From Phocaeicola massiliensis B84634 = Timone 84634 = DSM 17679 = JCM 13223 (GTDB taxonomy: Bacteria; Bacteroidota; Bacteroidia; Bacteroidales; Bacteroidaceae), in assembly GCF_000382445.1 (NCBI RefSeq), contig NZ_KB905474.1, positions 186,001 to 250,000 of the forward strand: DNA of 64,000 nt. Direction: 5' to 3'. The first letter of the stretch is position 1. Each line of letters starts with the position of its first letter. The notes under the pieces were generated by a model. That model was not told where the DNA came from. It searched no databases and saw only the letters and a list, made by a program, of their open reading frames with translations. Shown here one piece after another: positions 8,241 through 27,189 of this stretch. The position numbers and the translations under genes are program-made.

Positions 8241-8393
8241 ATACTCTCTTTTACATAAAATCTCTTTTGCCGGTCCTTACTGCTTATCCTACACGTTCAG
8301 TGATAAAAAGCAAGAACCGGCTTTAAGCATTCCCCACCCTATGAATAAGCCTTTCACACCCTAAACACAGGTCTTTCCTTCCTTACATATATT

Positions 8394-8481
8394 ACAGTCC
8401 GCCGTAACAGACCGTACAGTCCACTGCAACAGACTGTACGGTCCATTATGGAAGACTGTACAGTCTACTATGGAAGACCGT
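8394..8481. repeat. Four 22-bp imperfect tandem units with internal dyads (block 1)
   Basis: Units begin at 8394, 8416, 8438 and 8460, and each is exactly 22 bp. The shared frame is ACAGTC/ACGGTC at the left and GACTGT/GACCGT at the right, so every unit is itself an inverted repeat and unit boundaries also form dyads. Units 1-2 share CAACAGAC near the right and units 3-4 share TATGGAAGAC. The rest of the 8241-8729 gap holds no gene that I can support. Confidence 0.85.
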
Positions 8482-8569
8482 AATAACCGACAGGAGAAAA
8501 AGCCATAACCGGCAGGAGGAAAAGAGGTAATATACAGAAAGAAAGGACATAAAGGAGAGGAGAAAGAAG
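8482..8569. repeat. Second 22-bp block continuing the same register (block 2)
   Basis: Directly after block 1 the register continues at 8482, 8504, 8526 and 8548, now with a purine-rich sequence. The first two units share ATAACCG-CAGGAG-AAAA; the last two are more diverged (GTAATATACAGAAAG and ATAAAGGAGAGGAG). The first pair is clear and the second pair is weaker. Confidence 0.6.
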
Positions 8570-20732: not shown

Positions 20733-23975
<3,243 letters not shown>

Positions 23976-24039: not shown

Positions 24040-24260
24040 TCCTTAAAGTTCCCATATCATCCGGATCATTTCTCCCTTCCTCCTTTCATCAGCCGTTGAG
24101 ACGCCCTGTTGATGGGAGTTTCGGTAGTGAATGGGCATCGTTTCATCACCCTTTCAACCTCCCTTCATTTATAAAATTTCTCCCGGCGGAACAAGTACTG
24201 AAGGCAGATTGTGAAGGGACTTGGGAAGCGCGGCTGAAACAGGGATGAGGGGATGTCCTT
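24040..24260. other. Unassigned, fold-rich intergenic segment
   Basis: No convincing gene is present. The left half repeats CCCTTC/TTTCATC-type pyrimidine strings and the right half carries the reverse (GTGAAGGGA, CAGGGATGAGGGG). TTTCATCAGCCG on the left faces CGGCTGAAA on the right, so the segment can fold back on itself over about 200 nt. A local CATCA/TTGATG pair lies around 24090-24116. It could be a structured RNA or a decayed mobile repeat. Confidence 0.3.
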
Positions 24261-24380
24261 TCATTATTAATCACTTGATAATCAATGTATTTTAATTAAA
24301 ATGTAAGGATGAACGGAAAAGAAGGAATAACCGACTTAGTGAGGGGGGGGATGATCCTGTCTGCCCTACATGAAAAAGAT

Positions 24381-24464
24381 GCCGAGCTTTTTTAAAAAGG
24401 TGCTGAAGTTTTTAAGAAACATACCGAGCTTTTTTGAAAACCTCAAGGTCTTTTTGCACACGCC
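24381..24464. repeat. Four 21-bp imperfect tandem units (block 3)
   Basis: Units start at 24381, 24402, 24423 and 24444. Units 1 and 3 share CCGAGCTTTTTT, unit 2 keeps GCTGAAGTTTTT, and unit 4 keeps only AGGTCTTTTT. The period is 21, not 22. Confidence 0.75.
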
Positions 24465-24480
24465 AAACTACATACGGTGG

Positions 24481-24568
24481 CATAAGCCTGCACATATATA
24501 CACGTAAGCCTACACGTATATACGCATCGGGCTACACGTACGTACGCATAAGCCTACGCATATATATA
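24481..24568. repeat. Four 22-bp imperfect tandem units with palindromic cores (block 4)
   Basis: Units start at 24481, 24503, 24525 and 24547. All carry AAGCCT or a variant (CGGGCT) followed by an alternating purine-pyrimidine core. In unit 2 the core is CGTATATACG and in unit 3 CGTACGTACG, both perfect palindromes; units 1 and 4 have ATATATA cores. Confidence 0.88.
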
Positions 24569-24629
24569 TCATCCGATTAACGTTTTTTCATCCTATTCTC
24601 TTTGTCAGACAAGCCATTCGATATTGCTT

Positions 24630-24717
24630 CTTCACGGCCGTGAAGAACTCTAACCACGACCGTGGTTAACATTAGCCACGTCTGTGGTTAAGTTTAACCA
24701 CAGACGTGGAGAAGTAA
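24630..24717. repeat. Four 22-bp imperfect tandem units of hairpins (block 5)
   Basis: Units start at 24630, 24652, 24674 and 24696. Unit 1 holds the perfect 16-bp palindrome CTTCACGGCCGTGAAG. Unit 2 has arms AACCACG/CGTGGTT around two bases. Units 3 and 4 are reverse complements of one another over 16 bp and form a 34-bp hairpin (24676-24709). The block ends about 54 nt before the mnmA promoter box. Confidence 0.9.
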
Positions 24718-24770
24718 TATTGAACTAAAATGACTGAATGCAGGATATAAAAGAACTCATTTTGATTTCG

Positions 24771-24783: not shown

Positions 24784-25830
24784 ATGAAGCCAAACAATAA
24801 AGTTCTACTGGGGATGAGTGGGGGAACGGACAGTTCCGTTGCCGCCTTACTGTTACAGGATGCCGGATACGAAGTGACCGGTGTCACTTTTCGTTTTTAT
24901 GAAAAAGAAGGAGATACGGAATATTTGGATGACGCACGGACTTTATGTGAACGACTGAAAATCAAGCATATCTCCTACGACGTTCGCAATATGTTCCGAG
25001 AGACAATCATTGATTATTTTATCCGCGAATACATGGCCGGACATACCCCTGTGCCCTGCACGCTCTGTAACAATAACCTCAAATGGCCACTTCTGCAACA
25101 GCTGGCCGATGAATTGGGCATCTATCATTTTGCTACCGGTCACTATGTCCGCAAACGTTTCATCGACGGATTTTACCACATCACTGCCGGAGCAGACCCT
25201 GACAAAGACCAGTCGTTCTTTTTATGGGGGCTTCCACAAGATATTCTGCAACGGATGTTGCTCCCTATGGGTGAACTCACCAAAATCCGGGTTCGGGAAA
25301 TTGCGGAAGAACGAGGTTTTTTAAAAGCTGCCCATAAACGTGACAGTCTGGGCGTTTGTTTTTGCCCGATGGACTATCGCACGTTTTTACGCCGCGAACT
25401 ACCGGAGAACAGCATCCGCCCCGGAAAATTCTTCGATGAAACGGGAAACTTCATTGCATATCACGAAGGATATCCTTTCTATACCATCGGCCAACGACGG
25501 GGGCTGGGAATCGATTTAAATCGTGCTGTCTTTGTAAAAGAGATATTTCCCGAAGAAAATAAAGTGATATTGAGTAATTTAAAAGCGTTGGAAAAAACAG
25601 AAATGACATTGAAAGACTGGAATATCACAAATCCTGACGCATTGCTCTGCAAGGACGATGTGATTGTGAAAATACGCTATCGCAAACAAGCCAATCGCTG
25701 CACAGTGACGCTGCAAGCGGACAATACACTCCATGTGCAATTGCACGAGCCGCTCACCGCCATTGCTACCGGACAGGCAGCCGCTTTTTATCGGGAAGAC
25801 GTGGTGTTGGGAGGGGGAATTATCCAATAG
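24784..25830 (+). CDS. mnmA: tRNA-specific 2-thiouridylase MnmA
   Basis: The 348-residue enzyme activates and thiolates U34 of tRNA-Lys, -Glu and -Gln. The PP-loop SGGTDSS is at residues 12-18. Catalytic cysteines are in PVPCTLCNN (Cys92/Cys95) and LGVCFC (Cys192). [10 protein letters not shown] is the family C-terminal motif. The start is fixed by [14 protein letters not shown], since the PP-loop must follow within about 10 residues. Bacteroidaceae usually carry more than one MnmA paralogue, and this may be one of them. Confidence 0.93.
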
Positions 25831-26033: not shown

Positions 26034-27026
26034 ATGAATATGTCACGATTCGTCAATCCCTTTACCGACCTGGGGTTTAAGGTCATCTTCGGGCAACCTG
26101 CCAGTAAAGGGCTGCTCATCACCCTGCTGAATGAGTTGCTTGCGGGCGAACATCATATAGAGGATCTTTGTTTCCTTGACAAGGAAGACCATGCGGACAA
26201 TGTGCATGACAAAGGCATCATTTATGACCTCTATTGTCGCACGGACAGTGGCGAGTATATCATTGTAGAGATGCAAAATCGTTGGCACAGCCATTTTCTG
26301 GACCGTACATTGTATTATGTATGCCGTGCCGTAGGCAGGCTGACCGAGCTTCCGCCTCCCGATACAATAAAGATACCCGTCGAGAAGGATACGGACGGCA
26401 TGGTATGTGAAAGTAGTGTCCCGTATGGCTCCCGTTATAGACTGAGTACCGTATACGGCATCTTCCTGATGAATTTCAAGGAGGACGGACTGGATAAGAA
26501 ATTCCGTACGGATATAGTGCTCGCCGACAGGGATACGGGACGAGTGGTCAACCCCCATCTACGCCAAATTTATCTGCAATTCCCTTATTTCAATAAGGAA
26601 CTTGCTGAATGTGAGACATTGTATGAGAAATTAATGTATGCATTGAAGAATATGAATGACTGGAACAGAATGCCGGATGCACTGAAGGAACAAGTGTTTA
26701 AATACTTGGACCAATTGGCTGCTGTTGCCAATTTATCGGAAGAAAACAGAATAGCTTATGACAAAGCAGTGGATCGCTATCGGGTAAGCCGGATAGTGGA
26801 AGAAGACATTCGTAGGGAAGCTACAGAAGAAGGACTGAAAGAAGGACGAGAAAAAGGACGAGAAGAAGGAATGAAAAAAGGACGAGAAGAAGAACGACTT
26901 TCAAATGCACTGAAAATGAAAGCAAAAGGACTGGACTATGAAACCATTTCCGACATTACAGGCTTATCCATTCAGGAAATCGAAAAATTGGGAATTGACG
27001 ACAGAAGAGACGAAGGGAAGTTGTAA
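26034..27026 (+). CDS. Rpn-family PD-(D/E)XK nuclease (recombination-promoting nuclease / putative transposase)
   Basis: The 330-residue protein starts MNMSRFVNPFTDLGFKVIFGQ, the hallmark of Bacteroidota Rpn proteins. The nuclease core is visible as GIIYDLYC (Asp) and YIIVEMQNR (ExQ) at about residues 62-85. A helical middle follows, then six 4-residue repeats (EGLK, EGRE, KGRE, EGMK, KGRE, EERL). A short C-terminal module (MKAKGLDYETISDITGLSIQEIEKL) ends the protein. The family is known for DNA cleavage and RecA-independent recombination, and E. coli members are known as antiphage toxins. It stands alone and no transposon ends are seen around it. Confidence 0.85.
   Translation: MNMSRFVNPFTDLGFKVIFGQPASKGLLITLLNELLAGEHHIEDLCFLDKEDHADNVHDKGIIYDLYCRTDSGEYIIVEMQNRWHSHFLDRTLYYVCRAVGRLTELPPPDTIKIPVEKDTDGMVCESSVPYGSRYRLSTVYGIFLMNFKEDGLDKKFRTDIVLADRDTGRVVNPHLRQIYLQFPYFNKELAECETLYEKLMYALKNMNDWNRMPDALKEQVFKYLDQLAAVANLSEENRIAYDKAVDRYRVSRIVEEDIRREATEEGLKEGREKGREEGMKKGREEERLSNALKMKAKGLDYETISDITGLSIQEIEKLGIDDRRDEGKL
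26829..26900 (+). repeat. Six 12-bp tandem units inside the Rpn gene
   Basis: Units begin every 12 bp from 26829 and vary around GAAGGACGAGAA. Being a multiple of three, gain or loss of a unit would keep the frame. Confidence 0.85.
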
Positions 27027-27038
27027 ATCTCAACAAAA

Positions 27039-27189
27039 GGGAGTGCGCCAAAACTAAACCGGCCTATCCAGTTTCAGCTGTAGAGGCAGGGGTTGCCTGC
27101 CCGAAGACACAAAGCAAACCGTTTTCGGGCGAGCAAACCTCACTCCTACGAACGAAACGACAGCATTATCCACGTTTTGACACAACCCC
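27039..27189. repeat. Short interspersed element, copy 1 (about 151 bp)
   Basis: The left end GGGAGTGCGCCAAAAC and right end GTTTTGACACAACCCC are imperfect terminal inverted repeats (12 of 16). The interior has GGCAGGGGTTGCCTGCCC and TTTTCGGGCGAGCAAACCTC. It shares both ends with the copy at 28852 and the interior with the one at 32330. It has no coding capacity. Confidence 0.75.

Follow-up and report, generated by a model that had tools for sequence, protein, structure and literature searches.

Tandem arrays of 21-22-bp units, differing in sequence from gene to gene, lie at the promoters of Bacteroidales genes for HU-HIG proteins that carry a predicted C-terminal wHTH, and arrays of the same style are dispersed between genes of Phocaeicola massiliensis. 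This arrangement is well supported, and its function is predicted. The arrays are probably multi-site operators, or docking stations, for array-specific HU-wHTH proteins, with dispersed copies elsewhere; this predicted binding is read from sequence. The analysis started from the window, the whole 64,000-nucleotide stretch of the P. massiliensis genome that was examined, and from the intergenic gap upstream of mnmA within it.

Repeat arrays upstream of mnmA

An initial annotation of the window had described three separate four-unit blocks of unrelated sequence in this gap. Tandem Repeats Finder places block 1 at 24373-24440 (21 bp, 3.2 copies), block 2 at 24480-24566 (22 bp, 4.0 copies), and block 3 at 24651-24709 (22 bp, 2.7 copies), and about four units can be read by eye in each. 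The blocks are therefore real, but their separateness did not hold. Blocks 1 and 2 (arrays A and B) are part of one repeat element, so the gap contains two independent features rather than three. The program also detects an additional 22-bp array in the window, at 8393-8482, which the initial annotation overlooked (array D). The coordinates of all features are given in Table 1. The immediate neighbors were identified as the GH2 gene, mnmA, the PD-(D/E)XK transposase-like gene, and a rhomboid gene. A CRISPR array was rejected, as the 21-22-bp units are contiguous and have no spacers between them. Rfam returned only sub-threshold miRNA-type matches, which were taken as chance. P. faecium has, at the position of block 3 upstream of its mnmA, an unrelated four-unit 22-bp array (TATAACCCACCATGCCGGGTTA; L059 5853-5917).

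Table 1. Features of the window and their positions (position 1 is the first nucleotide of the window).
Feature	Position	Strand	Description
Array D	8390..8523	+	Four 22-bp units (GACTGTACAGTC) forming the body of a dispersed family (dozens of genome copies)
GH2 beta-galactosidase	20736..23975	+	Upstream neighbor; PF02836, PF02929 and others
Possible left target-site duplication ATATCATCCG	24054..24063	+	Identical 10-mer at 24566-24575; window copy only
Solo head of dispersed VapE element	24069..24573	+	Leader, array A and array B, without the gene; homology over whole length to about 22 other genome places
Array A (block 1)	24376..24459	+	Four 21-bp units, AAAAAG-core-CTTTTT; cores vary between units and copies
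Array B (block 2)	24480..24567	+	Four 22-bp units, CGTATATACG/CGTACGTACG palindromes
Possible right target-site duplication ATATCATCCG	24566..24575	+	10-bp direct repeat partner of 24054..24063; window copy only
Array C (block 3)	24630..24717	+	Four 22-bp palindromic units TAACCACGnCCGTGGTTA; flanks inverted AATATTGCTTCT/AGAAGTAATATT
108-bp indel relative to P. faecalis	24643..24758	+	AAGAACTC direct repeats at bounds; single C unit kept in P. faecalis
mnmA (tRNA 2-thiouridylase)	24784..25830	+	Downstream neighbor; PF03054, PF20258, PF20259
PD-(D/E)XK family transposase-like gene	26034-27026		PF12784; follows mnmA

Excess of the 21-22-bp period

The period is not peculiar to the mnmA gap. An 800-kb part of this genome contains 20 intergenic tandem arrays, 19 of them with a period of 21 or 22 bp (one array at 12 bp, four at 21, and fifteen at 22), and shuffled intergenic DNA, the control for this count, contained zero tandem arrays. 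Around mnmA in 80 other loci, the intergenic arrays peak at period 21-23 (22 of 38). Array counts for this genome rest on 1.6 Mb; stretches chosen around known copies supply more arrays, with a bias from that choice. The excess is far above chance. The initial annotation had expected a genus lacking such an excess to speak against its proposal, and the outcome was the opposite. The unit sequences are mutually unrelated, and the majority are palindromic.

Arrays at the promoters of HU-wHTH genes

HU-HIG genes were listed in the P. massiliensis genome and six relatives, giving seven Phocaeicola genomes, and the 260 bp upstream of each gene were scored by self-match at lag 20-23 over 66 positions. 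The wHTH class comprises genes with a C-terminal extension, with products of about 200 aa or more. In these genomes, which form a discovery set because the threshold of 36 was chosen after viewing their genes, 22 of the 23 sampled wHTH-bearing genes score at least 36 and thus have a 21-22-bp array upstream. By the same measure, one of 15 HU genes without the wHTH reaches the threshold (L342, through a 7-bp repeat), and none of the 15 is convincing. Among ordinary gene upstream regions, 0.9 to 1.9% score as high. The arrays usually consist of four palindromic units and lie between the promoter and the start codon. Most begin soon after a TAnnTTTG box, the promoter -7 box, and the first base of the array is typically 17-25 nt from that of the box.

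New loci beyond the Phocaeicola set show the same architecture, and 14 of 18 pass the threshold of 36. The single locus from Bacteroides neonati has a clean four-unit array of GTCG...CGAC palindromes. Twelve loci came from B. finegoldii, Parabacteroides distasonis, Bacteroides sp. CACC 737, and fecal phage-like contigs; with the best lag sought over 14-31, it was 21 or 22 in all twelve, and nine score at least 36. Four of five loci from other genera and families are also positive. Exceptions occur in both directions. Two wHTH-type proteins (L359 and L386) have no clear array, those of L371, L375, and L376 are weak, and L343 scores 37, barely above the threshold. Shorter HU-HIG proteins can also have an array score, strong for L385 (162 aa) and moderate for L387 (132 aa), so the association of wHTH with arrays is a strong rule but not an absolute one.

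The proteins encoded by operator-bearing genes match the Pfam HU-HIG family (PF18291) with 107 to 122 bits against a gathering score of 26.2, and 16 of 17 HU-HIG matches in the P. massiliensis genome exceed the cut-off. Pfam describes the family as an HU domain fused to a wHTH, an Ig, or a Gly-rich motif. The operator-gene proteins share a conserved C-terminal extension of about 70 residues, which is predicted to be the wHTH from the Pfam description and sequence alignment. A single-sequence structure model of an HU-wHTH protein had a pLDDT of 36, too poor for a wHTH call, and relatives with solved structures cover the HU domain only. A scan of viral contigs with the HU proteins gave no matches. 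The literature searched yielded nothing relevant on DUF3874 or on 22-bp palindromes repeated in Bacteroides, and no account of arrays at HU-HIG genes.

Placement after the promoter and before the start codon, units spaced by two turns, palindromic symmetry, and an adjoining gene with a DNA-binding product together suggest a multi-site autoregulatory operator. Each HU-wHTH protein appears to be encoded just downstream of its own array, in which the units are two helical turns apart. The protein would bind this array and, from it, repress its own gene. It would also occupy dispersed copies elsewhere in the genome, which would act as extra docking sites.

Array-protein pairing and the dispersed C and D families

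Across 33 HU-wHTH proteins, the more alike two proteins are, the more alike their arrays tend to be (Mantel r 0.49; 0 of 2000 permutations). Orthologues keep their array sequence, whereas paralogues differ. By rank correlation, array similarity tracks HU-domain identity no less closely than wHTH identity, and common descent contributes part of the protein-array correlation. One of several explanations offered by the initial annotation was a row of sites that all face the same side of the helix. This reading is now supported, because arrays with the same architecture occur at HU-wHTH promoters in several Bacteroidales families and because array sequence follows the protein.

The dispersed arrays can be compared with the operators of the same 33 genes. 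Array C forms a separate dispersed family with few copies. Its best match is the operator of a paralogue in the same genome (C1:449665, L326; 0.69), followed by the two orthologues of that gene; a dispersed C copy at C1:202632 matches L326 weakly (0.52). Array D matches the operators of another paralogue (C2:433408, L321; 0.69) and of its P. vulgatus orthologue (L337; 0.72), and D' arrays correspond to the operator of a third (C1:2531898, L324). The D and D' arrays differ, as do their two proteins. On these best matches, we propose that block 3 may be a copy of the C1:449665 array and that the array at 8390 may be a copy of the C2:433408 array.

Many D copies bear terminal inverted repeats (GGGTCACTTATTATTCTTGGGGATTTAA). 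The dyads in D are exactly 11 bp apart, giving two dyads per 22-bp unit. Substitutions in the D core (for example, L176 9807-9894) comprise 244 transitions and 36 transversions, compared with 139:97 and 100:52 in the flanks. This transition bias could reflect selection on a purine-pyrimidine pattern or a mutational process.

The terminal inverted repeats of D, together with the occurrence of A and B copies as heads of a mobile-looking element, would suit a reading of the arrays as selfish, minisatellite-bearing MITEs. They would then be inert passengers on small transposons, grown by slippage, and their period would reflect origin only. BrickBuilt of Porphyromonas gingivalis has been described in those terms (PMC4596501). 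Such passengers would not be predicted to sit at the promoters of one protein family in many genera, in a constant position and mostly as four-unit arrays, nor to retain their sequence in orthologous operators, and this explanation is unlikely. Arrays of one style but with their own sequences at HU-type gene promoters across the order are most likely matched docking sites rather than meaningless repeats. The arrays can be explained without a copying mechanism that makes four-unit runs, another suggestion of the initial annotation, even though blocks 1 and 2 have spread within a mobile-looking element.

Arrays A and B in a VapE/DUF3874 element

At about 22 other places in the genome, the leader upstream of block 1 is found again, followed by array A and, where present, by array B in the same order. 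The element copies have a common left end that begins TTTCTYCCTTCCTCCTTTCAT. A full-length element of about 2.5 kb (for example, L205 9567-12088) runs through a promoter into a VapE/DUF3874 gene and ends at its stop codon. The product, of 548-608 aa, has VapE-like (PF05272) and DUF3874 (PF12990) domains. No inverted repeat was seen at the ends of the A+B element. The 10-bp direct repeat ATATCATCCG that flanks the window copy may be a target-site duplication, judged from the sequence of its two ends. Neither array A (best 0.49) nor array B (best 0.52) matches any of the 33 HU-wHTH operators. Blocks 1 and 2 would be site arrays of the same kind as those at HU-wHTH genes, situated in the non-coding head of the VapE/DUF3874 element; the window copy consists of this head alone.

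Several features of these copies are worth recording. A-type arrays (L029 378-462 and others) keep AAAAAG...CTTTTT at the unit edges and differ in their 8-10 bp cores. Some cores are the reverse complement of neighboring cores, as if units had been inverted or swapped. A 45-aa open frame in array A was considered as a small peptide and rejected, since the frame is lost in other copies. In several element copies (L205 9957-10108 and other heads), arrays A and B are separated by a repeat about 150 bp long whose halves are inverted (GTGTGTCAAAAC...TTTTGACACA). This repeat is also present in the window at 27039-27189, after the PD-(D/E)XK transposase-like gene.

VapE/DUF3874 genes of other Phocaeicola species also have 21-23-bp arrays upstream (17 of 19 loci, by best lag), some of which are common to a divergent HU-HIG-type gene. 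Upstream of a P. vulgatus VapE gene (L306 2774-3134, in reverse-strand coordinates of the locus), consecutive arrays of differing sequence form five rows with periods of 21, 22, and 23. Iterons are 17-22-bp direct repeats in helical phase. Arrays A and B could belong to an iteron-type replication origin, in which the VapE helicase-like protein would bind them and the HU-type protein would help to open the origin. The frequency of arrays at VapE/DUF3874 loci and the presence of VapE-like proteins in phages both fit such an origin. However, VapE is neither annotated nor detected beside most of the HU-wHTH operators examined (e.g., L367-L372 and L374). The arrays are also palindromic, whereas typical iterons are not, which leaves an iteron-type origin quite improbable.

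A further explanation acts at the RNA level. Hairpins formed by the transcribed array would bring about transcription termination or attenuation, or would stabilize 3' ends. HU-wHTH operators do lie within the 5' leader, shuffled controls fold less well than arrays D and C and a single strand of B (z down to -9), and convergent genes flank 8 of 19 arrays compared with 39 of 160 gaps. Good folding is nevertheless expected of any palindromic array, and array A shows little or no gain in folding over chance. A test for compensatory changes in D found no excess of such pairing within copies, and D shows no clear strand bias. Block 3 precedes the mnmA promoter, and arrays shared with VapE genes likewise precede the VapE promoter. 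Between divergent HU and VapE genes, a single array serves one gene as its leader and sits upstream of the other's promoter; this arrangement favors a role at the DNA level. The hairpin-rich RNA considered in the initial annotation is thus left without support, and an RNA-level function is very unlikely.

Possible wider roles of the arrays

If the arrays are docking stations for matched HU-wHTH proteins, unexplained repeats become a testable protein-DNA pairing throughout an order plentiful in the human gut, and each genome offers a predicted binding site for a large, little-studied DNA-binding family. The predicted pairing could also explain how repeats of unrelated sequence come to have the same two-turn period and the same number of units, four. 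The numerous paralogue-array pairs form a natural set in which to study the evolution of DNA recognition. Any effect on mnmA or on chromosome folding is one that we infer.

A broader and more tentative possibility, which we regard as somewhat doubtful, is a private address system. Paralogous HU-wHTH nucleoid-type proteins would each read their own four-palindrome array, mobile elements would scatter the arrays, and the proteins would mark, fold, or silence the sites so labeled. Such a putative system would explain most intergenic minisatellites of this genome, and perhaps BrickBuilt too.

Relation to known repeat systems

ParB-parS and MatP-matS are chromosome-organizing pairs of a DNA-binding protein and its dispersed cognate palindromes. 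The arrays described here resemble them in the predicted pairing of a DNA-binding protein with dispersed palindromes. They differ in that many paralogues each have their own arrays of several phased sites, and any organizing role is putative. REP/BIME sequences with RAYT proteins are likewise palindromic, intergenic, dispersed, and often found at gene ends. They were rejected, as the only Y1_Tnp (IS200-like) gene (C3:336405) scores 24 bits against the RAYT cut-off of 80, and no tandem array lies around it. Arrays A and B resemble plasmid iterons in arrangement, being directly repeated units of some 22 bp close to a gene of replication type, here VapE/DUF3874, in which VapE is a putative initiator. 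Unlike plasmid iterons, the arrays here have palindromic units, fall into several unrelated families, and in many cases have no replication-type gene nearby. Operator-bearing genes are themselves members of a named family, HU-HIG (PF18291).

The statement in the initial annotation that no named element matches was nearly right, BrickBuilt being the closest named element (PMC4596501). BrickBuilt is a dispersed intergenic MITE of Porphyromonas gingivalis with a 23-nt tandem repeat, dyad symmetry, and 19 copies (PMC4596501). It contains up to 22.8 repeats and IS5-like TIRs (GAGACCTTTGCA), and matches were reported in P. gingivalis and P. gulae only (PMC4596501). By this description, the arrays here are set apart by their 21-22-bp units. 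The BrickBuilt TIRs are absent here; D has its own terminal repeats, and the A+B ends have none. The BrickBuilt report gave a MITE and promoter reading and left a neighboring HU gene unlinked (PMC4596501). BrickBuilt_14, the shortest copy listed (84 nt; Table 1 of that report), has no TIR listed and lies between PGN_0871 and PGN_0872 (PMC4596501). PGN_0872 encodes an HU-type (PF00216) DNA-binding protein and is transcribed away from BrickBuilt_14 (PMC4596501). As compared by published description, this position of BrickBuilt_14 beside an outward HU-type gene fits the Phocaeicola arrangement, and BrickBuilt, like other known repeats, could be an array of binding sites.
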